The translations under genes and the position numbers were made by a program. Of a DNA stretch of 64,000 nt, positions 33,101-63,550 are shown piece after piece. Where the stretch lies: the NCBI GenBank assembly GCA_943736015.1, contig OX031070.1:37626173-37690172 (forward strand). Direction: 5' to 3'. The notes beneath the pieces were generated by a model. The model saw only the letters and a list, made by a program, of their open reading frames with translations. It was not told where the DNA came from and made no database searches. Source of the stretch: Tridacna crocea. Taxonomy: Eukaryota; Mollusca; Bivalvia; Cardiida; Cardiidae. The number at the start of each line of letters is the position of its first letter. The first letter of the stretch is position 1.

Positions 33101-36100
33101 GCTGTTGCAGCGATGGCCAACTGGATGTAAAATATGCGGTACCATCAATACAAATTAGTTACACAATGAATACAACTTAGGCTCTTTAACATACCACAAA
33201 GTTTTAGACTTGTCCAAATTGAAAGAATATGGAAATGACAAATTAAATGCTGCACAAATGATAGAATTTGTCCATTACAGGATGGGAAACATTGTGGAAT
33301 ACCAGCCTTTTCTCCTTTTCCTACAATGTTTTCAAATCCTTCTCTATCAGGATCGGTAAAACTCTGCATTGTGAGCTGAAGGGTTTAACTTCCTTCTTAC
33401 AATGATATACCGTATAACGTTTTTTTTTTACTGCTGTAAAAGTTTACGAATTTGAGCTAAAAACATGTAATTTAAATTTTTACGATTTTATTTTTTACTA
33501 ATTCTAAACATGCGTAAAATATTACAGCATTAAAAATATCAGTGCATTGTCCACTTTCATTTAAGATTATAAGTGTATTGTTTGTTTTAAATACAGGTTG
33601 AAAGAAAAGTGTCACTCTTTGGCGTGCGAATAGTGGTAATTGTTTTGACGTGCGAATAACTGTTTTAACATATACCTGTATGGTCATAATTGATAACTAA
33701 CTGTGGAGGCACATTGTCATCTGTCATTACTTTTTTCAATCTCTTTAGAAAGCCCTCCTTTAGCTCATCGAAATTTTAAAACCTTGGGTTTTGCAGTTGT
33801 AAAGCCACGTCTTTTCACAAGACCCATTCGTGACATTTTTGAAGCAGCCCAAAGCCGAGTCAAATTCTCATCAACGCCATAACCAACGTGTCGTGTATCA
33901 TGAAGGTGCCTCTTTTACGTGGTGTCAAAGCATTTTTAACCTGAATATTCAATTCACGTATAGTATGGATTGGAATTCTCTATTAGTTTTCTGTTTGGGC
34001 ACGGAAGCCGTGGCTTAAAATACCCAAATAGAGATGACTGATTGAGAGAAGTCCTATCACATGTAATCAGAACACAAGTGAAAAAATTTTTATATTGCGT
34101 GTATTTAGTGCACAGGTATTACATACTGATAACCCTTTATTTCATATGGATACAATACTACGGTTTTACGCTGTAATTATTTACGCGTCGAATTTTTACG
34201 AATATTTTTGATGCGTAAAAATTAGTAAAAATTGGCAGCACGTAAAAAAAACCTGTTATACGGTATTATGGCACTTTAATATTGTAACAAACAAAAAAAT
34301 TATAGACTATTTGAGATTGAAAGCATTTTTAGACAACAAGATAAAATGTGTCCCAAAAGATGAGATTTTTCAAAAGAGCAGAAAGTAATTTAACTTAGTG
34401 GAAAAAGGAGCATTTCCTTCATTTGCTACACTATTCCTACTCTTTCAAAGACTCATGTCAAGTTTTATGCAACACAAGTTTTTATACATGAAGTAATTGA
34501 TGACTTTGGCTGCCAATAAAATGTACAAGACTCAAATGGTTGAATTGGTCTTTAACGCATTACCAAATGACAAAATTTTAAGTTTGTCCAATTCGAAAGC
34601 ATTTGCAGACTACAAAATAAAAGTGACTGAAATTTGAAATATTTTTTGTGAAGGGTAGAAAACATTGTGGGAAAAAGAGAAAATGCTGGTTACCAGCATT
34701 TTCTCCTTTTCCCAAAGCATTTGCAGACTACAAAATAAAAGTGACTGAAATTTGAAATATTTTTTATGAATGGTAGAAAACATTGTGGGAAAAAGAGAAA
34801 ATGCTGGTTACCAGCATTTTCTCCTTTTCCCACAATGTTTTCTATAGGCTTCTTTCTCAGGGGCGTCAAAAGTAGGGATTGCATGGTAATGGGTTAAAAG
34901 AATAAAAAAAAAACGCTGAAGGTAAGGGAGAAATTGCTTGTTGTCTGCCACAGTGTTTGCAAAAGCCATCTTGGACAGGGTAGTTAACCCTTTCCCATAC
35001 GACAAACTTTGGACCCTTCCAAACCGAAAGAGTTTGCAGACGACAATTTTAGACTTGGAGAAAATTGCAGAAAGTTCTCAAAAAGGGTAGAAAACACTGT
35101 GGGAAAAGGAGAAATTGCTCGTTACGAGCAATTTCTCCTTCTCCCACAGTGTTTTCAAAGACTTTTACGGCAGACACATAAAAACCAGGGCTTGTTTGGG
35201 AAAGGGTTAAGACATGGAACTGTTTGCTAAAAGGTCGAGTACATATATAAGGGAGATAAGTCAGGAAAAATCCCATCTTGTGTTACAGAATTATCTTTCT
35301 TGTCCAATATAGAAGCATTGGTGTACAAAAGACTGATACATATTAGGGTTGTGGCTCTCCCATTCTTCTCTCACAGCTGATTATTGTTTCAGTGATGACA
35401 ATGTGGGAAAGCAACCATGGCTTGAGAATAATATTGTGCAAAGCAGTGATAAAAGAAACTATAGGAAAGTATGGGCAGGTGGTCTGGCTATTGCAATGTG
35501 TCTGACATAATATTGAAAACTTTGTTAAACATCATACAAACTACAGCCAAACATTCACATAATTATTTGGAGAAAATGCTGCTAATCAGCATTTTGTCTT
35601 TTTCACACATTATTTTTAAAAAGTTTATTCCAAAGGGTACAGAAGTATAGGATTGTTTGGATTAGGAGTAAGTCAATTGATATGCGATCAGAAGGCCTTC
35701 TTATGATCCAAGTTGCTAACAGAGCTCCAGATAAGAGGGAGTGATTGTATTCTTAATCCATTATTTTGCTTCCAAACACTATGTTGTGGGTACTCATTAG
35801 AATGGTCTCGATGAGACGATTCTAATGAGTACCCACTACATAGGGTTTGGTGGAGAATAATTAATATTTCACTCTTAAAATCAATATCACTCCTTCTATC
35901 AGGAGCTCTGTTCAAATGCTGGTCATGCAAGAGTTATGTTTAGCAAGGTATTATAGAGGTCCAGTCTAATTTGTAAAATCCTAATAAGACTGAAAAACTA
36001 CTGAAAATGATGTAAAGAACAATCATAAAAGGTTATGAAGGGAAGAAATCAGAAGAAATGTGTTTTTTTCCACAGATTTTAAAAAAAACAAATTCATTTG

Positions 36101-39100
36101 ACAAACTCAATAGAACTATTATTATAAGTTTCAAGTATGTTTCACAAACGTGTGGGATCACTGGGAAAGTAGCCAGTGGATAGAATAGTATGGCTAAAAT
36201 AATAGAATTTATCTTTTAGATGGTAAAATCATAGTGGTAGTGCTTGTTATCAGCATTTTCTCCTTTTTGTGAAATGTTTTCGAAAACCTCTTTCCTCAGG
36301 GTTGTGTAGACATGGAAATATTATGTAAAGAGTGTAGATATTAGCACTCCACCCGCTTCCAAAGCTCCAAATAGAGGAAGTGATTTTGATTTCAAAATTG
36401 AAAGTATGAATTATTCTTCACTAAACCCTGTGTTGTGGGCACTCATTAGAATCGTCTCATTGAGACGATTTTAATGAGTACCAACAACATAGGGTTTGGA
36501 AGAGAAATAATGACTTTTTTTCCATTACTCCCTCTTATCTGGTGTCAATGAATGTCCCTTTCTTCCTGTACAATTGCATCTATACAAGCCCATTATGTAG
36601 ATGTCATCTTCTGTTTGTAAAGAATGGTTGGTCTTCTGCCGAAACTTAGCTGACTTTACCACACAACAGAATTTTAGACTTGTCCAAATTTAAAGCATTT
36701 GTAGCCGACAAATCAAAAATTGCTCAAATGGTGGAATTTCTCCTTGATAGACTGAAAACTATTGTTGGAAAAGGAGAAAATTCTGGTAACCAGAATTTTC
36801 TCCTTTTCCAACAATGTTTTCGAAAGGCTTCTTTCCAAGGGTCGTTAAAACCAGGGCTTGTTTGATAAAGAGTTTATTAAACAAAATCATAGACTTGTTC
36901 ACAATGAAAGCAGTGACAGCAGTTGCAGACAACAAATTAAATTTGACGGAAACAATAGTGCAGAGGAAGTTTTAATGCGTTTCTGCAATACATTATACCA
37001 AGCATGTCTCCATATAATTATGGATCCAAAAATCCATTTTATTTAAATACGGACTAATTGCGAGGGGAAATACTTGTTGGACATGAAGAAAATCGACCAA
37101 TGGCAAAAAGTGTCCAACCAAGAAAGCTGACCTGGGTCGGTAGTCTGCAAAAGTATTAACCCCCTTAATTATTTTTACTCATTACCAAACGATAATATTT
37201 TGGGCTCTGGAAAGCATTTGCAGAAGATAAAAGTGACTGAAAAGTTAAAAATTGTTTGTGCGGCGTAGAAAACATTGTGGGAAAAGGAGAAAATGGTGGT
37301 TACCAGCATTTTGTTCTTTTCCCACAATGTTTTCCATAGGCTACTTTCTCAGAGTTGTCAAAAGTAGGGGTTGTGTGGTAATGGTTAATACAGAACATGG
37401 TCCAATAAATATTTGTCTTAGGATACAACATTACTGGAAGAGGAACCAATAATCTTCACCAACATTTCTCCTGTCCCCACAATGTATTCACAAGCTTTTT
37501 TCCCTAGTGTTTTGTTTGAACATGGGATTGTTACATAAAGAATTAACACATTAGCATTCCACCCGCATGCCGCTATCCATGACTGGTCCTTTCTGTCCTG
37601 TGCAGTTGCATCCATACATCCCTGTTATCCATATGTCGTCTGCTGTTTGTAAAGAATGGTTTGTCGTCTGTAGAAAGTAGGGTGTGGAATCTCTGGATAT
37701 TTTTTCATGAACCAGTCTTTGGGTATTAGAAATGATGGCTTGGTGTTTTAAATACATCAGTTGTCCAAGTTTGTCATAGTTTCCATTTTTAAGTTGTGGA
37801 TAAAATATGTCAGTTTCGTTAGATGTAACTGTCCAACACATTGAATCCTTAAGGTACTTGACATTATAAACAATGTTACCAAGAAGAAGGCGTGGTTTTG
37901 GTCTGATGAAGTAGAATTTAAATGCAAGTCTTTCATGGTTTTCTGTGTTCGAAATAAAATCAGGGCTACATGTATCATGTGGACTTGTTTTAATTCCACC
38001 AACTCCTTGATTATAGCATTCTGTAAACATTAGACTGGTTTCATTAAAGCCTGTTAACATAAGTTTCTGTATTTTACCGTTCTCTTCGATGTAGAAAATT
38101 TTCACATGTATGATATCATTGTCAAAAAAGTCATGAATTTCTGCCAATTTTAACCATATCTCATTGCTAGTCACATTTTCATTTTCAATATTTACATGAT
38201 GGAAATATATCCCAACATTTGTGAAATATTTATCATAGGCAAACTTTCCAGCCCAAATCTCTTCAGGAAGTCTAAATCTAAACTGCCGTTCATCTGTTGC
38301 GATAACATGCGTGAAAATAAATATGGCAACTGAACCGCACATCAATAAGCACAAACCAGCTGCCAGAAAGCCTTTACTGATGTATTTACATTTTCCTGTG
38401 CTCTCTGCGTTAGTTTTGTCAACATGTTTGTGAATCAAAGGAATGATGATCTTTAAGGGTATGGAAACCATTACCAACAGTGCTTTGATTAGCTGGAAGT
38501 AGCTGACTGGTTCATTATGACACAGAGTGATCACAAAACTGGCTGTTATCATGGGGAGTTCTTGGAACCAGACTGTGATTACAAATGAAACTTCAATAGA
38601 TATCCAGGGTTTGCCTGAACACACATCGTAAAAGAGATTCAGAATTTCAAACAAGAATATAAGAGTTCCGAGTCCGCAAATAAGAAGGATCAGCATCAAA
38701 ATGTATGCGTTTAAAGGTCCGTAAACCAGTCCCTTGTCCAACGTGTAGACATCCTTGAAAAACAGCCAGTCATTGGCTATCTGTACACTATCCAATGTTG
38801 TTATAGTAACAAGTATGAAACCATTGAGATACGGGTGTTCTGTAAACACTCTGTAAAAGTGGCGGCCATTTTGACTTGTTTCATTATTGTCCTCATCATT
38901 GATAAGTTGAAGATGCTGTCTTGTCCTCATTTTGTCCTCATTTCATCCTCATTTCATCTTTTGTCCACATTTTACTTTGTGCTCATTTCATTTCTGCCCA
39001 CAGTTTACTTTTTCCTTGTTTAATTTTGAAACTCCTATGACTTTTTTTTTTAAAATCCCATTTCATTTATTTTAGTTCACTTTTCATTTTGTCTTTTATT

Positions 39101-42100
39101 TCTCTTTTGTTCATGTTTCACATATCGATTAATTTTGTCCTCATTCCATTTTTGTCCACATTTCATTTTGTCTTCTTTTAATGTTTGTTCACATTTCATT
39201 TTGTCCTCATTTTATTTTGTCTCCATTTCATGTGTCCTCATTTCATTTTTGTCCACATTTCTGTTTGTCCTCATCATATTTTTGTCCTCATTTTACTTGT
39301 CCTCATTTTACTGTGTGCTCACTTTATTTCTTACTCATCTAAAATTAAAACCCAATTATTTCACATACATCAACATGTCATTGTATCTCAATGTCAGATT
39401 ATTGTGATGTAAACTTTTACTGAGAATTGTTTGGCATAGCTTATTAACATACAAACTCTCTTCATTGTGAAAAATATTATATCTATGTTTTCCTGGCACT
39501 GCTGTGCAAAAACAAATCTGATATGAACCATAGTACATTATATCTCTCTCTCTATAGAAAGAAAACCTTTATTTCTTATTTGTGACCCGTCACGCATAAA
39601 GGGACAATCTGGGAATTCCGTACATCAATAAAATGAAAACAGATGAAAGATAGTGCAGGTCAGTTTGAGCTGATAGTTCAAAAATGATTTTATAATAGGG
39701 TAGAATGACCACTTTTCATACAGGAAATATAAAAGTGAAAAGAATTGACCCTGGTCAGCCTGCGCAATCAGCACAGTCTGACAAGGGTCAGCACTTTTCG
39801 TAGTTCCCAGATGATCCCTTTTTGCGTGATGGGTCAGATAGTGCAGGTCAGTTTGAGCTGATAGTTCAAAAATGATTTTATAATAGGGTAGAATGACCAC
39901 TTTTCATACAGGAAATATAAAAGTGAAAAGAATTGACCCTGGTCAGCCTGTGCAATCAGCACAGTCTGACAAGAGTCAGCACTTTTCGTAGTTCCCAGAT
40001 GATCCCTTTTTGCAGTGATGGGTCATAATTGTTACCCTTTTTGCGGGTTAGGAAAATTTTAGACGTGTACATATTAGAAACATTATTTTTGCAGACGACA
40101 AATTAAAGTTGATCAGATAAAATTATAGGAACATTGTCCTTGAAAACAATGGAAAAACCATATGGAAAAAGTCATACTATATGCACTTACAATATACAGT
40201 GTATGTTGTAAGTGCATATACATGGTATATGCAATGTATATGCAATTACAATAGTCTTGCACTTACCCCTTGGTATGATTACAAGGGAAAGGGAGTAAGA
40301 TATACATGGACCATCATGCGCGGATCCAGATATGTTTCTCAGGGGGAGTCCGACCGAAAACGCACTCGTCTTATTATATGATACTTTGATTTCCAGATTA
40401 CAGTGGATGTAGCCCAAGCCGTTTACAAGAAAAGTCAATGTTTACAGTTCTTACCATGTGGAGGTCTCCACATTTAGAACCTTTTTTTTTTTAATTTATG
40501 ACTGTATTTTACATAAATGTTGTACAATATCAAACCAGTACCATTTCACGAATCCGATAACCATATTTTTGCCAAAATTCTAAGGGTGGGGGGTGGTGTC
40601 CGGTACCCCCTCCCCGGATCCGCCCATAACCATACTCTGTGAAAAGGGTGTTCCGTTCCATTTTATCTGCAAAAAGTATCTGCCCATTTCAGCCCTTGCA
40701 GTCCATGCAGGCTGACCTATTTCAAAAATGCTTGCCACACGATCCCGACTTTCAATGACCCTGAGAAAGAAAGCTTTTCAAAACATTGTGGGAAAAGGAG
40801 AAAATGCTGGTAACCAGCATTTTCTCCTTTTCCTACAATGTTTTCCACCTGTCCAAATCAAATTTCAATTTTTGATTCACATTTATTTTGTCGTCTGGAA
40901 ATGCTTTCAATTTAGACAAGTGCAAAAGTTTGTGCATGTCTAAGGACCATTCGTCCTCATAATTCAGATACATGTGGTTGTTAAAATGCAGCATGGAGAT
41001 GCAATAACCCCCTTTTCCAAGAGTATGTTTTTTGTGTATATATATATTTGTTGATGGCTCCTTCCTTTCATCGAACAAAATACTGTGAACTCTTTGCCAG
41101 ACGTCAAAATTTCAGATTTACCGGAATGGAAAGCATTTGCACACGACAAAATGAATATGACTCGAAAATTGAAATTTACATTTGAAAGTTAAAGACTATT
41201 GTGGGAAAAGGAGTATTATAGGAGAATATTGCTGGTGACCAGCATTTGTTCCTCTTTCCACAATGTTTTCAAAAGGTTTCTTTCTCAGGGTCTCTAAAAG
41301 TCGGGATTGTTTGGTAAAGGATTAAACCTTTACCAAACAATCCCAAATTTTTTTAATGACTTCAAGAAAGAAAGCTTTGGAAAATATTGTAGGAAAAGAA
41401 GAAAATGTATGTCACCAGCATTTTCTTTTCATACAATGTTTTCTACCCTTTTTGATGAAAATTCAACTATTTTAGCCATAGATAATTTGTCATCTGCAGT
41501 CACTTTCAATTTGGACCAGTCTAAAATTTTTTTGTCTGGTGAAGGGTCAAGATGCAACAGCTGGCGAGATTAGCTGGACATTTTCTATTTATGTGCCTTT
41601 GTCATACTTCAGATGGAGCATGAAATCTGCATTCCTTTTATACCATTGAACATTATATTCCGCATTATGTACACAGAAAAGCAGATGAAAAAGATTGATT
41701 GATTTAGGGTGTTTAACTCCTTTTTCAACATTATTTCATTTATATCGCGATGGCCAGTGCACCTATCCATGCTTTACTGGAGTCTCTTTTTACCAGAACT
41801 CTGCACAATTTTCTTTCAAAGCCACTGGCTGCTTTCCCACATAACCATCATCGAAACAATGGTCAGCGGTGGGAGAGGAACGAATCCTGTCTTAACCCTA
41901 TACCACACAATCCGGACTTTTAACAACCCTGAGGAAGAAGCGTTTTGAAAACATTGTGGGAAACGGAGAAAAATTAATGCTTGTAACCAGCATTTTCTCC
42001 ATTTCCCACATTATTTTTTACTCTGTCAAAGGTCATGCACATGCTGTTTTGGACTGTAGTCTCTGTAGCTAGCTGCTTGAAACGTCAGCCATGTGGCAGC

Positions 42101-45100
42101 GTATATTTTGATGACAGCACTCTTGTTGCTTTGTAGAAATTGTGCAAGCAGTATGTTTTTTCTGCGGGCGCCTGCATGCCTTTGTGCTCACATATATATG
42201 ATGCTAATATTCTGAAGTTGTGTATTTCTAATAAATAACCTAGGGCCTTTATTGGAACCATAGCAAATTGATGTAATAGTCAATGACCTTTTTTGTGTAC
42301 TATTTGGTAATTTCTGAGTGTTACCCAGTATTGCAAAACAATACTGCGACATAACTGTAATTCAGCCAGTCTGCTTAGATTTCGTGAGATTTCGAGAAGA
42401 AACCAAAAAACTCTGGTTGCATTTTGCTAACAGACTTTTTGGCAGCTGAATCCATCCCCCACAAAGGCTGTTTTTAGAATACATGAACATCCACCGCTAA
42501 ATAGAACAAGTCACAGCAAGGAGAACATTTTACAGGTAAGGGAATCATTAGAATAAAACATTGTGGGGGTGGAGAAATTACTTGTTACAAGAAATAAACG
42601 TTCTTTCTCCCAAATTGTTTTCTAAATCATTTTATTGCAAAGGTGTTTATAGCTGTATGTTTGTTTGTAATAGAATGTTTCATTTTTTCAGGTGATGAGC
42701 TGAAACAGAAAGCCCTAGAGAGATTAAAAGATGAAACTGTAAGTAAATGAGTGTTATATCATGTCTTTGTCACCCATTTACCCTTTACTCCATAAGGAAT
42801 TTCTATTTTATCTGTAATTGACCCTAAATAACAGCAAGGATGAAGCCGTTTTTTATGGGTATATGACACCTTTTGATAGCATAGAAAACATTGTGACAAA
42901 AGGTGAAATTGCTCATCACGAGCAATTTCACCTTTTGCCACAATGTTTTCCAAAGGCTCCTTCAAGCAATGTGTAGAAACAAGTATCTATGGAGTAAAGG
43001 GTTAACCCTTTACCAAACAATTCCTGGTTTTTATGACCCTGAGATAGAAGGCATTTGAAAACATTGTGGGAAAAGGAGAAAATACTGGTAACCAATGTTT
43101 TCTACCCTGCTGGAAACAAATTTCAAGTTTTGAGTTGTATTAATTTTGTTGTCTGCAAGTGCTTTCAATTTGGAAGTGTCTAAAATTTTGTCGCTTTGTT
43201 GTCGCTTGCTTAGTTATCATCGCCTGTGTCTTTGCAATTTTTGTTAAATTGTATTGCTTCAATTCACAATTAGCCCAGTGTAATATTCCTACAATTTTTG
43301 TTGTACAAAACTAATTATTATTTCATGCTTTCCGGTAGGATATCGAGAAATAGCCGTGAAAATATTTTTCGATCATACACAGGTATGACCTGTGAAAATC
43401 CGATTTTCATGTTCTTGTTGCCTAGGTAAATTGCACATGCCTCACAACCAGATGGAAATATGATGTCATTTACCTTACATTTCTTGCGCTTGACATGATA
43501 TTGTAATGCCTTGCTTTGTAGGAGGGCACGCCACAGGGAATAATGGAAAAGAACTGTACTGGATTTTGATAAAGCTCCTCTGAGAAAGGGTTAAAAGCAT
43601 GAAATAAATAGAATATTTGGGTTTTTTTGGTGAAAGATAGAAATTGTGCCACTCGTGAAAATATTACCGATGGTGTTCACTCGATGAAATAAATTTCGAT
43701 CTTTCACAGAAAAAAACAAATATCCTCTTTATAATGTGTTTCTTACTTGAATTCTGTGTTTGTTATAATCTGTCTGTCTGTCTGTCTGTCTGTCTCTCCG
43801 TAGACAAATTTCTGTCCTGTATTTATGATGTTATTTTTATATCACTCAAAATAGTTCAAACCACTGCCAATGTATATTGCTAAAGATTTATTTTATACCT
43901 TTAATCTCTGTGTTTTAATGGTGACAAATTAACCTATACTTTTGTACATCTTCGTGAGCCAAGTTTATGATCCCAACATAGATCTTATCTTGTCTGATTG
44001 AGCCCGATTTCAAGATTGCTGCGATGCGCCCTCTATTGGATGCTGGTTATTACCCCCCTTTACATCATATTTCTAAAAGCAAATGAAATATCGTTTTACA
44101 AACCGCTTATGAATACACATGAAGCGATAAGCAGACATCCACATGGGTTTCCATGTTTACCTTCTACTCGAAAGGTAGAGACCTTGTTCTTTTTTTATCA
44201 AAGATGAAATGCTATGAGTGATTTCATTTGTTGCAGCTACAGCTGGCTGCATCCAATGAAAAAGCATATCAGGTGAATGTAAAAATAAAGCTCAATCCAC
44301 CAAGGCTAGAGTAGCATAGTGAATTGTCAGCCTTGGCTTGCGAAGATGACTTTTGTAGGGAGTTTCATTTTTTATACGCACGAAGAGTCGTATTATGTTA
44401 TACCCCAGGTCGACCGTCCGTCCGTGTGTCCGTCTGTGTACAAAATACTAGTAATTTTAAGTCCTGAACTCCTCCTATAGTTTTCCTTGATTTGTATTGA
44501 AACTTTGCTCCTATATTGAACATATATTGAAGATTTGCAAGGCGCAATTTTCAAGTGTCAACTCTTCCTGCTTGAGGAATTATCTCCCCTTCAACTTGAC
44601 ACCTTTTTTGCCAAAGAGTTGGCGGGAGTATAAGTCACATTCAGCGACAGCTCTAGTTTTCTCTGTCTTTAGTAAATGGCTTGTTCATGTTTCTTGTGAC
44701 AGGGTGACAGTCCAGAGAGACTGGTTTCTGGTTCAGATGATTTTACTCTATTTCTCTGGTACCCAGAAAAGGACAACAAGCCTATTACAAGAATGACAGG
44801 GCACCAGCAGTTGATTAATGATGTTCGATTCTCCCCGGATACAAGACTCTTAGCTAGTGCATCTTTCGATAAATCCATCAAATTATGGAATGGCAAAGAT
44901 GGGAAGTGAGTATATGAACTGTTTACCAAACCACCATTTGGAAAGAAGCCTTTTGAAAACATTGTGGAAAAAGTAGAAAATGCTGGTTACCAGCATTTTC
45001 TCCCTTTCCTACAATGTTTTCAACTGTGATAAGGATAAATACCAGCATTAGAGCCATCTTTAATTTGACGTCTGCAAATACTTTCAATTTAGACAAGTCC

Positions 45101-48100
45101 AAAATTGTCATTTGGTAAAGAGTTAATCCTTCTATCAGGGCCGTATTCACCAACCATTCTTAAGAACGTTCTTTGTCTAATTCTCCAAATTTTTCTACAT
45201 TTGTAAGCAACACAACTTCTGATTGGCTAAACCATTTGGTTAAGCCAAAATGGTTTAGCCAATCAGAACTTGTGTTACTTACAAATTTAGAAAACCCTGG
45301 AGAATAAGACGAAGAATATTCTCAAGAATGATTGGTGAATACGGGCCCAGGTCCTTTGTTTTCAAAAATTAATAGATCTTGTTTTTAAGGATCCTGGTGA
45401 AGAAGGTTTAAGAAAACAATGTGGAAAATGGATAGAAAATGCTTTTTCCACAATGTTTTCTACCCTTTCACCGCCAACTTCTGCTATTTAAGCTACATTT
45501 TAATATAAGGTCTGCAAGGGCTCAGATTTTGACAAGTTCAAAATTTTATCATTTAACCTTTACCAAACAATGCCTGGTTTTTACAACCCTGAGATAGAAG
45601 CCTTTTGAAGAACTTTTCCCACAACGTTTTCTACCCTGCCTGAAATAAATTTTGATTTTTGAGTTACAGTACAACCTGTATTCAGAGACCACTTAAGGGA
45701 AGTACTGAAATTGGTCTCTTACAGTAGGTGGTCTTTAAATACAGGTTATATTAGGTTAATGTAAGAAAGGTTGTTATATCAGAACAGTGGTCTCTTAAAG
45801 CAGGTGGTCTCTTAATAGAGATAGTGTCTAACACTGTATATTGATTTTGTTTGCAAGTGCTTTCAATCTGGACTTGCCTGAAACTTTGCCACTTGGTAAA
45901 GAGTTGATCAAAATTAAAAAAATATCATTCCAGATTCATAACTACTTTACGAGGCCATGTCAGTCGAGTGTATCAGATATCATGGTCAGCAGACAGCAGG
46001 TTATTATGTAGTTGCAGTTCCGATTCAACGCTAAAAGTATGGGATATAAAGATGAAGAAGCTTCTCTTTGATCTGCCAGGGCATGCTGATGAGGTAAGAT
46101 CTGGTTTCTTGAACAAGATTTTTTACCATTATTAACAGTATTATCCATATTGAACAGTATTACAGCCAATTAAAAGAACACTGTCATCATAGTCTCACAC
46201 TGTCATTTTTGACTCATGCTATCATTTTAGTCCATCAGTATCATCTTAGCCCAACACTGTCACTTTAGTCTCTCACTGTCACATTAGTCCCTCACTGTCA
46301 TATTAGTCCCACACTGTTATATTAGACCCTGTCTGTCATCATAGTCTCTCATTGTCATATTTGTCATTCTCTGTATTTGTCATAGAAGTCCCTTACTGTC
46401 ATACTAGGCCTCTGTCATTTTAGTCTCTCACTGTCATTTAAGTCTCGCACAGTCACATTAGTTCCTCACTGTCATATTAGTCCCTTATTGTCATATTAGA
46501 CCCACTCAGTCATCTTAGTCTCTCATTTGTCACTCTCTGTCATAGAAGTCTTTTACTGTCATATTAGACCCTCTGTCATTTTAGTCTCTCACTGTCACAT
46601 TAGTCCCTCACTGTCATATTAGACCCTCTCTGTCATCTTAGTCTCCCATTGTCATTTTAGTCACTCTCTGTCATATAAGTCCCTGAATCATATTAGACCC
46701 ACTGTCATATTAGTCCCTCGTTGTCATATTAGATGCTCTCTGTCATACTAGTCTCTCACTGTCATTTGAGTCTATCACTGCCATATTAATCCCTCACTAT
46801 CATATTAGGCTCACACTTTCATGTTTTATCTTTGTTAAATTTGTTTATGATCTATTCTGTATTTGACTGACAGCTATATGCAGTAGACTGGAGTCTAGAT
46901 GGTCTCATTCATTTTAGTCTCACATTGTCATTTGAGTCCCTCTGTGTCATATAAGACCATTTCTGTCATATTAGTCTCTCACTGCCATCTTAGTCTCTTA
47001 CTGTAATTTTTGTCTCTCACTGTCACATAAGTCCCTTATTGTCATATTAGTGGCTCACTGTCACATTAGTCCTCTGTCGTTTTGGTCTCTCACTGTCACA
47101 TGAGTTCCTCAATGTCATATTGAACATTTTCTGTCATCATTTTAGTCTCTCAATGCCATGTTAATCCCCCAATATCATATTACACACACACTTTCATGTT
47201 TTATCTTTGTAAAATTTGTTTATGATCTATTCTGTATTTGATTGACAGGTATATGCAGTAGACTGGAGTCCAGATGGTCTCATTCACTTTAGTCTCACAT
47301 TGTCATTTGAGTCCCTCTGTGTCATATAAGACCCTTTCTGTCATATTAGTCCCTCACTTTCATCATTGTCCCTCATCATCATTTTAGTCTCTGACTGTCC
47401 TATTAGTCCTTCACAGTCATATTAGTCCCTTACCATCATATTAGACCCTCTGTCATTTTAGTCTCTCACTGTCATATTAGACCCCCTCTGTCATCATAGT
47501 CTCTCATTATCATTTTAGTCACTCTCTGTTGTATAAGTCCCTCACTGTCATATCAGACCCTCTGTCATTTTAGTCTCTCACTGTCATTTTAGTCTCTCAC
47601 TGTCACATTTATCCCTCACTTCATATTAGTCCTTCTTTGTCATATTAGACCCTCTCTGTCATCTTAGTCCCTCATTAGTCTCTCACAGTCATATTGGTCT
47701 CTCACTGCCATAATATTTCCTCTCTGTCATCATAGTCTCTCATTGTCATTTTAGTCACTCTCTGTCATATAAGTCCCTCAGTGTCATATCAGACCCTCTC
47801 TCATTTTAGTCTCCCACTATCATTTTAGTCTCTCACTGTCACATTTGTCCCTCACTTTCATATTAGTCCTTTTTTGTCATATTAGACCCTCTCTGTCATC
47901 TTAGTCCCTTATTATCATATTAGTCTCTCACTGTCATATTGGTCTCTCACTGTCACATTAGTCCCTCAATGTCATATTGAACCTTTTCTGTCATTTTAGT
48001 CTCTCACTGCCATGTTAATCCCCCACTATAATATTAGGCTCACACTTTCATGTTTTATCTTTATAAAATTTGTTTATGATTTATTCTGTATTTGATTGAC

Positions 48101-50787: not shown

Positions 50788-50796
50788 GACAGCTGA

Positions 50797-50993
50797 TGTC
50801 ATTACCAAACGACAATATTCTAGGCTTGTCCAAATCGAAAGCATTTAAGGACGACAAGATAAAAGTGACTGAAAATTTGAAATTTGTTTTGTGAAAGGTA
50901 GAAAACATTGTGGGAAAAGGAGAAAATGCTGGTTACCAGCAATTTCTCCTTTTCCCGCAGTGTTTTGTAAAGGCTTTTTTCTCAGGGTCTTCC
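50797..50993 (-). mobile_element. PalT copy in the NLE1 3'UTR
   Basis: Starts 10 nt after the stop codon, left TTAA lost, stem almost perfect (one-sided change in AGCAATTTC). Truncated on the right. 50994-51589 holds the poly(A) candidate and plain sequence. Confidence 0.9.
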
Positions 50994-51077
50994 TTTTAGC
51001 TTGGATTCCTTCTTTCAACAGAAGTTACCAGATTATTGTGAATGAAGGAGAAATGAAAAAAAAACATGCCAGAGAAG

Positions 51078-51083
51078 AATAAA
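51078..51083 (+). promoter_or_regulatory. Candidate NLE1 poly(A) signal
   Basis: AATAAA lies about 290 nt past the stop codon. If used, the 3'UTR would contain nearly the whole PalT hairpin at 50797-50993. Confidence 0.45.
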
Positions 51084-51589
51084 TGGAGGGTAGTTGAAAT
51101 AAAAATGATCTTTTATCCAACATTCACCCAACTGTTTGTTATACTTTTTTGACAGAAAGAGTGTACAGGAAGTATCGGAATAAAGTGAAATACATGCACA
51201 AGTTTGGTAAAGAAATATCCACACTTTTCAAAGTTCTTGTCACTGACAGTTGGCACATTGTTCTAGTTTTATAGAACATGTTTTACTTCCAGCAACTTGA
51301 AGTTTGACAGATTCAAGTCCCATATCATGCAGATCACTAGGTCAAGCTTAGCAGCCTTAGGGTCAAAGATTAGTTATGAAAATTTTAGGAAAGAATTACA
51401 AATATAAACAGGCAAGCTCTCAGTGCAATGATTTTGTGGAAAGATAACTAATTACTGATTTAAGTCATTAAAGGCAGCAAGAGTTATTTCTCTTCTAGAA
51501 GTGAAATCGATCCTGCACGTTATGAATGGCAGTAGAACTTTGGACTTAAAATGATTCTTTGATTCAGGGTCGATATTTATGCACAGTTT

Positions 51590-51817
51590 TTAACTCTTTA
51601 CCAAACTAGAAAATTTTAGACTGATCAAAATTGACAGCATTTGCAGAGGACAAAATGAATGTGACTAATGTAATTGAAGTTTGTTTCAGGAAGCGAAGTA
51701 AACATTGTAGGAAAAGGAGAAAATGCTGGTTACCAGCATTTTCTCCTTTTCCGACAATGCTTTCATAAGGCTTCTTTCACAGGGGTGTTAAAATAGGGAT
51801 TATGTGGTAAGGGTTAA
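51590..51817 (-). mobile_element. PalT copy, complete
   Basis: TTAA both ends; GTAGGAAAAGG / CCTTTTCCGAC stem. Confidence 0.93.
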
Positions 51818-51825
51818 CGAACGTT

Positions 51826-51977
51826 CATAATCTTATTCTTAAAAATTTCAAAAGTTGAAAGTAATAAAACTTGTGATTGGCTTAACCAAATTGGTTTAGC
51901 CAATCAAAATCTGTGTTACATTCTAAATGTAAAACTAGACCAGTAACGTTCTCAAGAATGGTTGACAAATAGAGCCT
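51826..51977. mobile_element. ACCAACCATTCTTAAGAA MITE, decayed
   Basis: Retains the inner TGATTGGCTTAACC palindrome and the right end AAGAATGGTTGACAAATAG. Confidence 0.78.
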
Positions 51978-52003
51978 ATCTGTCTGCCCTCTCTATGTCT
52001 GTC

Positions 52004-52312
52004 GAGCCTTGGTAGCTCAGTCGGTAGCGTGCAGAACACGGGGTCCAGGGGTTGATCCCTGGCTATGACCCCTGGCTCTGCCATTTTCTTTCCGAGGATT
52101 GGTGATAGTCACTGCAACAGGATTCATTCCTCTCCCACCTCTGACCATTCTTTCGACGATGATTGACCATTTTTTCGACGATGATCAAATGAAAGCAGCC
52201 AGTGGCTTGGAAAGAAAATTGTGCAAAGTACTTGTAAAAGAAACTCCTGGAATGGATAGGTGCTCTGGCCGCTGCTGAAATAATGTTGAAAACTGCGTTA
52301 AATACAATACAA
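52004..52312 (+). mobile_element. tRNA-derived SINE, most complete copy
   Basis: tRNA-like head GAGCCTTGGTAGCTCAGTCG with box B GGGGTTGATCCCTGG. Body has GATAGTCACTGCAACAGG, GAAAGCAGCCAGTGGCTTGG and GTAAAAGAAACTCCTGGAAT. Tail AACTGCGTTAAATACAATAC. A ~25-bp tandem duplication (GACCATTCTTTCGACGATGA) lies inside. 52313-53032 shows nothing recognised. Confidence 0.9.
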
Positions 52313-53032
52313 TCAATCTCTCCATGTCTGTCATAGCCCCAAAATCCTGATCATGTACTGATGCAGAAACTTTACCAGCCACTTTCTTGAAACTTCTTAG
52401 CTGGTGATAGGGAGTAGAGCCGAGTCGACAATGCCCCTATTTATGGCATTCATATCGTAAAAAAGACAATTGCAAATTTGGCCATGAAGAGTTGTCCGTC
52501 TTTCAGCCATCTTGTATCACCTAGCAACCGTTCAGCAGGTGCGCTGAACCTCGATTGATTTAGAGCAGTCAGAACATGTTCTGAGGAATAGGGCACAGTG
52601 TTCCGAAATACTCTATTGACCTAGAACATGCTCGGAGTGTCCGGAGTAGTGAAAGGAATACGCCCTGTATCATTCTCTTTCTGTCTCTATCTTGCTCCTC
52701 CTTAACTCTCTCCTCCTGTCTGTCTTCCTCCTTTCTTTCTCTTGTACAAATTACTGGGCGTAACGTTAAGCTACCCCGAAAGTTAATGGAGAATGAAATA
52801 TTTAGTTGTTTTTCTCAAGGAACGGGTTAGAAATGATAATGTCTATTTATATAGTTACATAAAACTTTGCTATCGAGTTAACGACAGGCGTAACTTAATA
52901 CTTTTATTTGTCATATTTTTTGTGATATTCCCCGAGAAACTCGAGTCATCTTTAAACAATTAATGTGAAAGTTATCTCGGTTTGTCGGGAGATTATATTG
53001 AAATCACACGACGATTTTTTTCTCTAGTCATT

Positions 53033-53264
53033 TTAACCCATTACCACTCAATCCCTACTTTTAACGACCCTGAAAAAGAAGCCTTTAGAAAACATTGTGA
53101 GAAGAGGAGAAAATGCTGGTAACCAGCATTTTCTCCTTTTCCTACAATGTTTTCTACCCTTCACAAAACCAATTTCAAAAAAATATCAGTCCCTCTTATT
53201 TTGTCGTCTGCAAATGCTTTCGATTTGGACAAGCCTTAAATATTGTCGTTTGGTAATGGGTAAA
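53033..53264 (+). mobile_element. PalT copy, complete
   Basis: Right end GTAATGGGTAAA directly joins the duplicated block at 53264. Confidence 0.92.
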
Positions 53265-54278
53265 AGTCTCCAATAGCTGCAAAGAGTACACGACTACACG
53301 AGTACTGAATGCATTTGAACGTAAATTAAATCATACCTTTTACGAGGATGAAAGCTATTTTGAAGAGGACAAGCTGTTGTTGTGCGATCGCTGGTCGGTC
53401 CAAGTGTACGGTCCAGTTTCTGGCAGAAAATGGAATTTGAAATCTGGTTAAAAGTAAACAGAAGATATAGCGACCTGGCAGCTTTTGTCCTGAATGCATA
53501 TTTACATTTTTTTCTGCCAGCGACTTTATTAGTTGTACGGTCAGGTGGCAGGGGACTTGGAAACTTGTTCACGGCTGTGCTTAATCATGTCGCCCCGAGC
53601 CGAATGCGAGGTGGCGACATGATTCACCACAGCCGTGAACAAGTTTCCAAGTCCCCTGCCACCTGACCGTACAACGAATTTATTATACTGCAAAGTTTTT
53701 CCCTTTCAAAGCGCTTTAAGCGAAATTTTCCTGTTTTATAATTTCACGAAACGAGTATGCTGACGAAATAGCAATTCCCTTCTGTGTGCCCCAATTCAAT
53801 GAAAACTGACGTCACTGGAAACTGACGTCACTTAAACGAGCAGTTTGGTGCAAAAATGTGCAGTCTGGTGATCGATTCACGCCGCCATTTTGGATGATGT
53901 ATTGCACGTGTAGTGATGTTTACGGGGCACTCAAAAGGGAAACTGTTTTTTGCCAGGGAACATGACATTATGTTTGGTATGTTAACCAATCAGATCACGA
54001 GAAATTTCTTTGCAGTATAATAAAGACTTATCATCTCCCGCCAGATGGCATTCTACAAATACACATCTATCTAATTTGAGCATTCTTGGTACAGAACCGG
54101 ACTACTTTTCTACGGGACAGCCGTTTCTTTGCATTTCAAACTAAAATAAACGCTACCTGGTACGATTCATTCAGCTATGATCAGCAGTGTAGAAATCTGG
54201 GGCTGAAACAGGCACGAATTATCAAACTTATTGATAAAAGCCATTCCCTCCATTGGTACTTTGTAGTGCGTATTCAGG
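53264..54278 (+). repeat. Segmental/foldback repeat, copy 1 (filled)
   Basis: 53264-53525 matches 59947-60207 at high identity (TCTCCAATAGCTGCAAAGAG...TTTCTGCCAGCGACT). After a composite insertion it resumes at 54024-54278 with AAGACTTATCATCTCCCGCC and the CTGATCAGCAG-type arm. Confidence 0.9.
53526..54023 (+). mobile_element. Composite hairpin + TTTATTATACTGCAAAG MITE, with empty-site proof
   Basis: Hairpin 53535-53676 (arms ~56 bp, TACGGTCAGGTGGCAGGGGA) plus MITE 53680-54023. The sister locus at 60207 reads CAGCGACTAAGACTTATC without it. Confidence 0.93.
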
Positions 54279-54755
54279 GGTAACAACCTACGTCATGTAG
54301 CATACGTCATTGGAGACATTTTATATCCGCCATTTTCGTTTTAAAATGTGAGTTTTTCAGCTTGTACATTATTGTTATTGAAAATCTGTCCAAACAAAGC
54401 AGAGCATAATAGTACCTGACAACTTTCTTCGTTAGTCTACATTAATATTTTGTTCATTAGTTTCGCTGTTTTTGCAATTACCTCCGCATAATTTTCGAAG
54501 CCGCTGACGCATGTGCGATTTAAAAATAGATGTATACAATGCCGTTAAGAATACTTGTGTTGAAGTGTTTAGAGCTACATCATTGCTTCATGGCATTTTG
54601 ATTTCACGAATAGTACAAATATATTTTCTGTCACCAGATGAAGTAGGTATTCGTGTAAATTTTTGATACATATATCTTTTTAAAGTAATTAATCTGCACG
54701 TTGCGCACAAAATGACGACTATTCCGACACCTCTGCTATGACGTAGGTTGTCACC
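54279..54755. mobile_element. GGTRACAACCTACGTCAT element, 477 bp
   Basis: Left GGTAACAACCTACGTCATGT and right CTATGACGTAGGTTGTCACC are inverted. It splits the foldback arm from its TGATGCGTCAT end at 54800. No coding frame. Confidence 0.85.
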
Positions 54756-55854
54756 TTGGTATAACTGCAATCCTCCTCCCCAACTTTGGGGGGGGGGGGG
54801 TGATGCGTCATAGAAGACAAGTCAAATCCTCGAAGAATTTTACATGCGCAGACAACGTCTAAGATGTGGACCGACCATACAATAACAGATTGTCACCATC
54901 ACTATAATTTCCAATCATACTTTTTGAAAGGCATGATTCGATTATTTAATTTTTACCCCCACTTTGTTCACCTTTGGCAGCTATTAGACCTTTAAACCTT
55001 TCAGGGTCGCATGCACAAATGAATGGCTTTTCGGATGGTATAGATCAAGACTAGACTGCACAGAACGTGCAGTCTGATCTTGGATCCACACCGTCCGCTT
55101 ACCCAATTTACCTTATCAGATAGTGCCAAATGTTGCGTGTGATGGCTGCAAGATTGCACAGTTTACGACGGACAGAAAGGTTAAAGGTGGGTATTTAGAA
55201 TTTTAACATCACACAAAATTAATATATATATATATCATTGAAATTTATATGAAAAAAATCAAATCATCAATAATTAAGAATCCTAAAATTACAATTTTTT
55301 ATGGTATTCCCTTAAAAGGCTACGTAGCCTCTTAAGCTACTTTTAGATTTCGCGCCAAAAAATAAATAAAGCATTGTGGGAATGTCAAGTGACTGGTACG
55401 TGACTAATAACGCTTAAATTCCATTACATAACAAACATGTAATAATAATTTTCCATAATATGTCTTCTTTGGACGGATGTTTGAAACTTCGTCCGTGTTT
55501 TCCTGTATTTAAATGAGAGAATTGATAATCTAAAAATAGAACGTGTTCTCCGCTGGTGTCAACCAGGTCCGTAATAAATCTCTAATTTCTCGTGTTATCG
55601 ATGGTTTTCGACTACTGAGGTTTTAGGAAAGCAATTTAAAAGGCTTTGGGAGTATAAGGATGATTTTTTTTTGCATTTTTGTAAAAATTTTCGTCCCAAA
55701 ATCTGAAGGGCCACCTTTAAAAGATTTTTGACCAATCACGAATTTCTATTCCTTATTTTTTCATCAGTACCTAAAAGTAAGTCAGCCAGCAAATTCAGCT
55801 ACCCCCCAAAAAAAAGGTTATTGTATTCTATGGAATTTAGGGTAGCCTGACCTT
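54756..55854 (+). other. Foldback remnant, a small MITE and unassigned sequence
   Basis: A foldback end TGATGCGTCATAGAAGACAA with (G)12 lies at 54789-54870. A GATCAGACTGC palindromic MITE bounded by AACCTTTCAGGGTCG and GACAGAAAGGTT lies at 54997-55190. 55200-55850 shows nothing recognised. Confidence 0.7.
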
Positions 55855-56063
55855 TTAACCCTTTACTCTATTGCTTGAAGGAGCCTTTGGAAAACATTGT
55901 GGCAAAAGGTGAAATTGCTCGTGACGAGCAATTTTACCTTTCGCCACAATGTTTTTTATGCTATCAGAAGGTGTCATATACACATAAGAAACAGCTTCAT
56001 CCTTGCTGTTATTTACGGTCAATTAGAGATACCATAGAAATGCCTCATGTGGTAAAGGGTTAA
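55855..56063 (-). mobile_element. PalT-2 copy
   Basis: Opposite orientation to 4228; stem tip TCGTGACGAG; left flank shortened. Confidence 0.92.
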
Positions 56064-56088
56064 AGTAAGAACAGGTGTAAGCGATCAT

Positions 56089-56324
56089 TTGACCCTTTGC
56101 TCGACAGCAAACTTTTAGACACGTCCAAATTGAAAAGAGTTTGCAGCCGAAAAATCGGATATAATTCGAATATTTTATTTTCTGTTAAATGGAAGAAAAC
56201 ATTGTGGGGAAAAAAAGGAGAAAATGCTGGTTACCAGCATTTTCTCCTTTTTTTCCCACAATGTTTTCTGAAGCCTATATCTATCAGGATTGTTCAAACT
56301 CGGATTTGTGATATAAAGGGTTAA
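56089..56324 (-). mobile_element. PalT copy with lengthened stem
   Basis: GTGGGGAAAAAAAGGAG pairs with CTCCTTTTTTTCCCAC: the same expansion in both arms. Confidence 0.93.
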
Positions 56325-56434
56325 TGCTTTTCCTGCTCAAGAACTTTAATAAAAATTTAAATCCAGGTGCAAAACTCAAATAATGCTAATTTCAATAATG
56401 ATTTTTTTAAAGAAAAATAAGTTCTTACCGGACA

Positions 56435-56515
56435 GTGTAGATTCAAGATCAGACTGCACGTTTTGTACGGTCTGATCTTGAAAGACAATGTCCGCAAAAG
56501 GTCAGGGAGCCCCGC
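56435..56515. mobile_element. GATCAAGATCAGACTG hairpin MITE
   Basis: TTCAAGATCAGACTGCACG with inverse GGTCTGATCTTGAA. Confidence 0.75.
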
Positions 56516-56876
56516 TCAGTACCCAATGGGTTACTATTTTCTAAAATGCTAATAGAAATATGGTACACTTCGTTATGGAATGTAAACTTGCAGCGTCTCG
56601 TCTTTATTAAAAAAAAACGTTTCAACGCCTCTGGGACAGAAGGCATTTGTAACCATTGTGGTTAAACGAGAAAATCGGGATCTTTTTCCGTGTTTCGCAA
56701 AGTTTTTATTCTGGCCCTGTAAAGAAAAATGTCATCATATTTTAATCCTAGATCCTTTCTACAGATACCTATTTCTGCACCATTCTGCAGACCTTTTGTG
56801 TGCGGTGGGGGGGGGGGGGGGGGGAAAGAGGCTTCAGGGGGCGGGGCAGTTGGCAGTGATTTGGCAAAAGAGGGAC

Positions 56877-57052
56877 GATAAAATTTTGGGCACCTGAAAA
56901 TTCAAAGCATTAACAGATAAGCTCTTGCTCGGTGCGTAGTATTTGTCTTTGAAAGGGTACACAATATTGTTGGAAAAAGAGAAAATGCTGGTTGCCAGCA
57001 TTTTCTCTTTTTCCAACAGTATTTTAAAACTCGCACTACCTCAGGATTGCTT
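56877..57052 (-). mobile_element. PalT copy with doubly changed stem
   Basis: GTTGGAAAAAGAGAAAATGC pairs exactly with GCATTTTCTCTTTTTCCAAC. A (G)18 tract lies at 56806-56824. Confidence 0.9.
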
Positions 57053-57909: not shown

Positions 57910-59190
57910 TTCCCAATGACCCGGTACTACTTTTCAACAAAATGTATAAAGGACATTATCTCCCTCTAATTTGGGCATTCTGGGTACAGAACCGGACTAC
58001 TTTTCTACGCGACAACCGTTTCTTTGAATTTCAAAGTAAAATAAACGTTTACTCAATGAAACGCCACCTGATGCGATTCATTCAGCTATGATCAGTAGTT
58101 TAGAAAAATCTGGAACTAAAACAGGCCTGATTTCTACCCAAAAGTATTGATACAAGCCATTTATTCCATTGCTACTTTATAGCGCGCCCATCTTTGGGGC
58201 ATTATCTCCCGCTGGATGGCATTCTATAAATACTCATCTATCTGATATGGGCATCCTGGGTACAGAACCCGAATCACTTTCCTACGCGACAGCCGTTACT
58301 TTGAATTTAAAACTGAAATAAAGGTTTACTCAATAAAACGCTACCTCGTGTAATTCACTCAGCTATGATCAGCAGTTTAGGGAAATCTGGAGCTAAAGCA
58401 GGTCTCATTTCTAACGTATTGATCAAAGCTATTTTCTACATTGCTACTATATAGAGCGTAATATTACAGTCAGCCCGCTTTCGGGGCTAGTGATGCGTCA
58501 TATAAGACAGTCGAATCTTCGAAGAATATGACATGCGCAGACAACGATCTTTTGGGTCGTTACTTCGAAAAAAATGAAAAAGAATGAGCAGAAAAAAAGG
58601 GGCGCCAAAAAGAGGCAATTGCTCATTTGGTTACTTTTCATTATTTACTTCATTTTGAGCCACAAAAAGATTTTCAGTATTCATTTTCGAGTATCTTTTA
58701 CGCCGTGTTTATTCTGTAGAAAGATATATTTCTCGTATTTCCATCTATGCAATGGGAGAAACAAAAAAGTGAAAGTCAAACTATCTCCCTTGTTAGATAA
58801 AAATAAAGGTAACCAAACTGCAACTAGGTCCCGTTGTCTGCGCATGTCATATTCTTCGAAGATTCTCCCTGCCTTATGTGACGCATCACTCTCCCAATAT
58901 TTGGGGGATTTTAGTAATTTAATACGCGCTATAAAGTAGCACTGAGAAAAATGGCTTTTATTAATACTTTTGTGGAAAAATCAGGCTTGTTTTAGCTCCA
59001 GATTTCTCTAAACTGCTGATCATAGCTGAATGAATCGCACCAGATAGGATTTTATTGAGTAAACGTTTGTTTTAGTTTGAAATTTAAAGTGACGGTAGTC
59101 GTATAGAAAAGTAGTCCGGGTTTGAACCCAGGATGCCCAAATAAGATAAATGTGTATTTGTACAATGCCATCTAGCAGGAGATAATGAAC
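57910..59190. repeat. Foldback element cluster
   Basis: Forward arms 57910-58195 and 58196-58547, a ~280-bp centre, then a reverse arm 58829-59190. The inverted pair contains AGTGATGCGTCATATAAGAC, GACATGCGCAGACAACG and CGCTACCTCGTG-type sequence. The 121-codon frame at 58574-58939 crosses centre and arm and is not a recognisable gene. Confidence 0.85.
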
Positions 59191-63321: not shown

Positions 63322-63550
63322 TTAACTATTTACCTCACGACAAAATTTTAGACTGGTTCAAATTGAAAGCATTTGCAGACGACAAAATAAAGGTGCTTGA
63401 AAAATTGAAATTTTTTCTGGGAAGGGTAGAAAACACTGTGGGAAAAGGAGAAAATGCTGGTTACCAGCATTTTCTCCTTTTCCTACAGTGTTTTCAAAAG
63501 GCTTCTTTCTCAGGGGCGTCAAAAGTAGGGATTGTGTGGTAATGGGTTAA
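63322..63550 (-). mobile_element. PalT copy, complete
   Basis: ACTGTG/CAGTGT stem variant; very like 3851-4080. Right TTAA shared. Confidence 0.95.

Follow-up and report, generated by a model that had tools for sequence, protein, structure and literature searches.

In a 64,000-nucleotide stretch of the genome of the bivalve Tridacna crocea (assembly GCA_943736015.1, contig OX031070.1; C15:37626173-37690172, hereafter the window), a short repeated element named PalT occurs in versions whose central hairpins differ in sequence and remain paired. Do the two arms of this hairpin change together, and if so, by what route? A first-pass annotation of the window had proposed that they do, through either selection for pairing or repair that copies one arm onto the other. 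We compared copies in the window with copies and pattern counts from the whole assembly (1.049 Gb in 31 contigs). Coupled change in the arms is not the rule. Most stem change is one-sided, and the large paired states are passed on by descent. What is left is a small group of symmetric changes, best accounted for by rare template switching from arm to arm, a mechanism already known. An account in three layers, comprising descent, independent mutation and rare template switching between arms, is the one that we regard as probable.

PalT is a small TTAA-flanked element with a length of about 229 bp. Aligned copies have TTAAC as their first bases and GGTTAA as their last, with similarity ending outside, so that TTAA stands at both ends in the manner of a target duplication. 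The consensus opens with TTAACTCTTTACCA and closes with TGGTAAAGGGTTAA, a pair of short terminal inverted repeats in which some columns are variable. By its ends, PalT appears to be a piggyBac-like miniature inverted-repeat transposable element (MITE), and we take this TTAA-type anatomy to point to piggyBac. Like piggyBac-like MITEs as we know them, it has TTAA at both ends and short terminal inverted repeats, and it is short, apparently non-coding and present in many copies; unlike them, it has a large, near-perfect central palindrome, and its kinship is read here from the ends. The palindrome has 33-nt arms around one base, and a consensus-like copy folds into a single hairpin, with a stem of -35.9 kcal/mol as DNA compared with a mean of -6.3 for 200 shuffles. 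Foldback or palindromic MITEs, as we know them, resemble PalT in having lineages with different but paired stems, whereas the PalT stem is internal and set apart from the terminal repeats. The flanks outside the stem are asymmetric in the aligned copies, as the first-pass annotation had said. In literature searches, which covered titles and the openings of abstracts and are weak evidence of absence, we met no description of this element.

The family is very large. A 20-nt stem pattern, allowed at most two mismatches, has 270,682 forward and 269,558 reverse matches genome-wide; the reversed control pattern has 7 and 14. Because the stem is palindromic, matches on both strands are the same places, and PalT therefore has approximately 270,000 copies. 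A perfect inner stem is present at 183,553 places. A sample of 0.29 Mb contained 217 stem cores with at most 20 mismatches in 66 positions, while shuffling that sequence once yielded just one match, with 29 mismatches.

The extent of coupling was counted in 119 copies picked by their flanks alone, a set that serves both for pair counts and for comparison of stem with flanks. Of the pair cells in this set, 3,330 are unchanged and 296 are changed on one side only, while doubles are matched in 26 cells and unmatched in 8; one-sided changes make up 296 of the 330 departures (90%). Shuffles of the set gave 7.9 doubles (standard deviation (sd) 2.5), and 12 of the 26 matched doubles sit at a single position, pair 7. 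A second set of 139 well-preserved copies, picked by stem and including copies fetched for a stem variant, gave 4,128 unchanged, 400 one-sided, 46 matched and 13 unmatched cells (one-sided 400 of 459). The 47 well-preserved copies of the window gave 1,401, 125, 18 and 7, respectively.

The window stems on which the idea of coupling was based, together with related stems, are as follows.

36647 to 36876 (limits approximate), forward strand: MITE copy of repeat family D5, with the main example of the first-pass annotation.
36755 to 36821, forward strand: stem of that copy, with matched doubles at pairs 11 and 27; unmatched pairs, 0; one-sided, 3.
56195 to 56268, forward strand: run-expanded stem, with A7 in both arms, G4 on the left and C3 on the right.
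56960 to 57026, forward strand (orientation weak: flank scores 44 versus 26): stem with matched doubles at pairs 5, 11 and 18.
3959 to 4025, forward strand: stem with the pair-7 C.G state (ACTGTG/CACAGT).
8118 to 8184, reverse strand: stem with the pair-7 C.G state (ACTGTG/CACAGT).
63429 to 63495, forward strand: stem with the pair-7 C.G state (ACTGTG/CACAGT).
24993 to 25059, reverse strand: stem with matched doubles at pairs 9 and 17.
29378 to 29444, forward strand: stem with a matched double at pair 5.
35090 to 35156, forward strand: alternative stem of the PalT-2/3 kind, with doubles at pairs 7, 25 and 30.
17706 to 17772, no strand assigned: alternative stem of the PalT-2/3 kind, with doubles at pairs 7 and 25.
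4334 to 4400, no strand assigned: alternative stem of the PalT-2/3 kind, with doubles at pairs 13, 20 and 25.
42884 to 42950, no strand assigned: alternative stem of the PalT-2/3 kind, with doubles at pairs 13, 20, 25 and 30.
55890 to 55956, no strand assigned: alternative stem of the PalT-2/3 kind, with doubles at pairs 13, 20, 25 and 30.

The hairpins and the paired variants listed in the first-pass annotation are thus real, and were located in the stems at 36755, 56960, 3959, 8118 and 63429. GTTGGAAAAGGAGAAAATTC and its exact inverse lie at 36764-36812, within the stem at 36755-36821; GTTGGAAAAAGAG lies in the stem at 56960; and ACTGTG/CACAGT occurs in further window stems at 12273, 17706, 18615 and 35090. 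The positions first given for these variants do hold PalT elements, although they mark element starts and the stems lie some 60-130 bp further on. An expansion claimed for both arms at 56089 was borne out in part: at 56207 the A run is A7 in both arms, but the G run has four bases in the left arm and three in the right, which makes the expansion only partly symmetric.

One of the large paired states is that at pair 7. In otherwise perfect 55-mers, genome-wide, the double occurs 9,798 times, the left-only change 1,775 times and the wild state 38,855 times, where independence would give about 81 doubles if right-only changes equal left-only ones (the same equality was taken for the A7 runs below). 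This excess is accounted for by inheritance. Among the five nearest flank neighbours of carriers (15 copies), the pair-7 state is shared at a frequency of 0.667 compared with 0.069, and the states at pairs 25 and 30 at 0.48 compared with 0.02 (5 copies each); copies fetched for a stem variant were kept in this test. Because the flank neighbours of carriers share their state, the pair-7 C.G and PalT-2/3 stems are subfamilies that reflect shared descent, and the flank clustering speaks against them as independent paired events. The same five-neighbour test found no clustering for one-sided pair-7 changes, for A at the centre or for pair-11 doubles, the nearest to clustering being right-arm T at pair 11 (0.18 versus 0.09, p 0.054).

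Evidence for something beyond descent and chance comes from stems in which a run of four A has expanded to seven. Genome-wide, perfect 51-mers with A7 in both arms occur 5 times and with A7 in the left arm alone 7 times. Independence predicts about 0.001 doubles given at least 48,653 wild stems, a lower bound for wild A4/T4 45-mers obtained as a sum of subsets. With at most two mismatches, 49 places have both arms at the longer length, and 34 of these have two non-central changes from the A7/T7 stem: 9 carry symmetric complementary changes, 24 carry changes at different pairs, and 1 carries non-complementary changes at the same pair. The one-sided spectrum predicts 2.2 symmetric cases (P 0.00026). 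Chance is excluded as the source of the A7/T7 symmetry.

We read the flanks of 14 symmetric run-expanded copies, namely the 5 perfect and the 9 symmetric ones. Arm compared with arm, L048, L054 and L055 are identical throughout, and L052 is identical except at the outermost position. L053 has GAAG, A7 and a longer G run common to both arms, and L050 has changes at pairs 5 and 12 plus A7 in both; in L050, L053 and L055, combined run and base changes are repeated from one arm to the other. Arms identical over combined changes within a single copy were found in L048, L050, L053, L054 and L055, and the remaining symmetric copies have one to three one-sided differences each. In flank relatedness the 14 copies (0.910) do not exceed sets of similarly diverged copies drawn at random (0.911, sd 0.023). 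Descent of the 14 from one distinct source is not supported. We also observed, at L042 (approximately 2621-2908), an element of two inverted 5' halves, the arms of which agree over 38 nt with shared private changes (self-alignment overall 296 nt, 79% identical). It was left uncounted as a case of arm copying since recombination between two elements is also possible.

Substitutions point the same way in well-preserved stems. For the bulk tests, the test of co-occurring doubles and the centre spectrum, 16 of 207 copies, fetched for a stem variant, and six PalT-2/3-like copies were dropped; the stem at 56960 lies outside the sets with at most 8 or 10 mismatches (11 mismatches, orientation unsure). 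When the pair-7 C.G and PalT-2/3 states are not counted, the 143 copies that have no more than 8 mismatches contain 22 matched doubles compared with 7.7 expected (reached in 0 of 1000 shuffles), and 11 compared with 3.8 when pairs 0, 1, 7 and 11 are left out (1 of 1000). Two or more such doubles occur together in 3 of the 143 copies (36755, 24993 and L021:3675), with a null of 0.13 (1 of 2000 shuffles); for 151 copies with at most 10 mismatches the null is 0.46 (14 of 2000). For 36755 and for 24993 alike, the six nearest flank neighbours include no copy with both doubles of the stem in question. L014:4947 has a double at pair 10 and no one-sided change; its closest flank relative (7%) is wild there and the next is one-sided, these being relatives and not orthologues. 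The central T is A in 15 of the 143 copies, compared with a 1.3% rate of T to A at stem sites (odds ratio 8.7, stem A/T sites), a possible sign of spacer inversion.

Counts at pairs 27, 18 and 11 are consistent with chance. The left-arm G to T change at pair 27 has 1,864 matches genome-wide on both strands, and 1 of 99 distinct copies among the matches listed is double, where about 0.25% is expected with the 183,553 wild places. At pair 18 the G to A change has 9,532 matches genome-wide, and 2 of 98 copies among the matches listed are double, where about 1.4% is expected on an estimated wild count of 165,000. Neither shows a clear excess over independent mutation, so that clear coupling is not supported at either; together they leave room for arm copying in a few per cent of substitutions without requiring it. 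Nor is clear coupling supported at pair 11, where 410 G to T doubles genome-wide fall within a range of 167-545, obtained by scaling up one-sided rates measured locally at each of four stringencies. Pair 11 is itself unusually variable, being changed in 18% and 25% of flank-picked copies on the two arms, mostly on one side and without clear flank clustering.

These results suggest the following sequence of events. The copies that spread had near-perfect stems, and a few lineages had different, equally paired ones (pair 7 C.G; PalT-2/3). Copies of such lineages inherit both arms together, as the flank clustering shows, and after insertion the arms mutate separately and give mostly one-sided changes, as the counts show. 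Occasionally, one arm would be templated by the other during hairpin extrusion, that is, by template switching at a quasipalindrome. Such an event would double the content of the copied arm, run expansions and substitutions alike. Template switching predicts symmetric combined changes in single copies, and the copies observed match this prediction. We infer arm copying from symmetric complex changes in unrelated flanks, and likewise infer its timing after insertion and the switching of a polymerase. That template switching recurs after insertion across the approximately 270,000 dispersed hairpins, and that it strongly favours run expansions as what is copied, is a wider claim on which we are evenly divided.

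Several observations weigh against arm copying. The 185 copies with at most 20 mismatches, a set that includes stems out of register through indels, show no excess, with 46 doubles versus 50.4 (sd 7.6); copies that hold at least two doubles number 9 versus 9.7. At the strict end, 81 copies with at most 3 mismatches have 4 doubles versus 1.8 (103 of 1000 shuffles), and 118 copies with at most 5 have 10 versus 4.2 over all pairs (6 of 1000) but 4 versus 2.2 without pairs 0, 1, 7 and 11 (185 of 1000). The centre spectrum differs from that of stem sites only at p = 0.08, with C and G also raised. The A7 double is present in 5 of about 19 carriers, compared with 1-2% for substitutions, where copying in its simple form would give comparable shares; possible reasons are that the longer arm is favoured or that the run-expanded stems belong to an old lineage. 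The flanks of symmetric copies are more diverged (0.277) than background (0.175), as would be expected too if these copies were relics of an old lineage. The polarity of the stem changes is presumptive, being read from this genome's copies, and the doubts that we hold concern an old run-expanded lineage, hidden small subfamilies and assembly error. At approximately 14.03-14.19 Mb of contig C1 (G000), equally spaced matches (14064230/14065250 and 14149516/14150536) point to a possible segmental duplication, by which stem changes could be dated.

Much of this could be read as descent and chance alone, with source lineages giving all paired states, run-expanded stems as relics of an old and diverse longer-armed lineage, and other doubles as unseen small subfamilies. 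The clustering of pair 7 and PalT-2/3 by flanks, the diverged flanks of run-expanded copies, the lack of excess in the most permissive set and the sampling of flanks for only about 0.1% of copies are all consistent with it. Age alone nevertheless fails to explain the symmetry, because one-sided A7 copies do not differ from symmetric ones in divergence (0.265 versus 0.277, p 0.58). One-sided A7 copies are also about as numerous as double ones, the 14 symmetric copies have flanks no closer than random, further symmetric changes within the A7 class exceed expectation, and pair-11 doubles lack flank clustering. We therefore consider descent and chance alone unlikely, though the most serious of the alternatives. 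Stem changes are mostly one-sided, which spoke against the first-pass proposal of coupling, but the paired states are not wholly due to shared descent, because run-length doubles lie in unrelated flanks, extra symmetric changes occur in the A7 class and private doubles in well-preserved copies exceed expectation.

Stem and flanks also differ in divergence. In the 119 flank-picked copies, median divergence from the consensus is 4.5% in the stem and 14-15% in the flanks. The ratio of stem to flank pairwise distance is 0.33 for distant pairs and 0.64-0.67 in the close-pair bins, with 0.28 in the sole pair below 6% distance. Variants present in at least 12 copies occupy 0.010 of stem cells compared with 0.076 and 0.069 of flank cells, and rare variants (1-5 copies) occupy 0.033 compared with 0.042 and 0.037. 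The stem is mainly constrained among the copies that spread, and later mutates nearly like the flanks. Since the stem holds rare variants at close to the density of the flanks, and since most changes are one-sided, general repair of the arms after insertion is not supported; of the repair originally proposed, rare arm copying is what the run doubles in unrelated flanks and the private doubles point to. Source-level selection for pairing could underlie the constraint seen among spreading copies, as could other causes.

As a full explanation, selection for pairing would mean that sources with mismatched stems spread poorly and that a second change restoring pairing was favoured, with no arm copying. 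The constraint is indeed visible in variants common to many copies and hardly in rare ones, but such selection acts on sources only, leaves symmetric stems in single or few copies with unrelated flanks unexplained, and sits poorly with a pair 11 that is often one-sided in otherwise good stems; we consider it very improbable. Gene conversion between copies, moving whole stems with both arms together across flank backgrounds, would uncouple stem from flanks, as seen for A7, and might contribute to low stem divergence. Wild donors are, however, at least 1,000 times commoner than A7 stems, which would make A7 transfer very rare, and pair-7 stems remain linked to their own flanks, so that conversion is slightly less credible still. 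An assembly or library artefact, in which self-priming hairpins create false symmetric arms in sequencing, ranks equally low, since the one-sided differences kept in most stems rule out general false symmetry.

Rare template switching between arms has precedents. In yeast, one arm of an inverted repeat is copied from the other by template switching (PMC8604942). The resemblance to PalT is that arm templates arm, several differences vanish together and spacer inversion is a second outcome; the yeast case concerns single loci with strain phylogenies, whereas PalT is a dispersed family without orthologues in which spacer inversion is only suggestive. Template switching has also been proposed as a source of compensatory changes in RNA stems (PMC8794818), where paired changes are likewise explained as arising by one copying event rather than by two mutations and selection. 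That report concerns rRNA and microRNA stems, while PalT is a DNA hairpin in a mobile element without a known RNA role.

The window contains other repeats. Directly upstream of the copy at 36647, a different, imperfect long inverted repeat (AAACCCTGTGTTGT... and its inverse) occupies approximately 36424-36497. At 46146-48600, degenerate 19-nt units (TTAGTCTCTCACTGTCATA-like) are densely arrayed and form a satellite-like repeat of their own, and 57965-58186 and 58925-59146 form a 222-nt inverted repeat with 86% complementarity and 738 nt between its arms. Elsewhere in the assembly, COX1 lies on a contig of 29,009 bp and has three TGA codons in frame, as expected of an animal mitochondrial genome.

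The caution that follows from PalT is that paired states in repeat families can be mere subfamilies. The opportunity is that hairpin template switching is usually studied locus by locus, and from this family, with its 183,553 perfect inner stems, the rate, tract length and bias of the process in an animal germ line could be obtained. PalT could also separate mutational coupling from selection for pairing, a distinction that matters wherever covariation is taken as evidence of structure. If template switching does recur after insertion across the family, one animal genome would amount to a huge natural replicate experiment on quasipalindrome correction.

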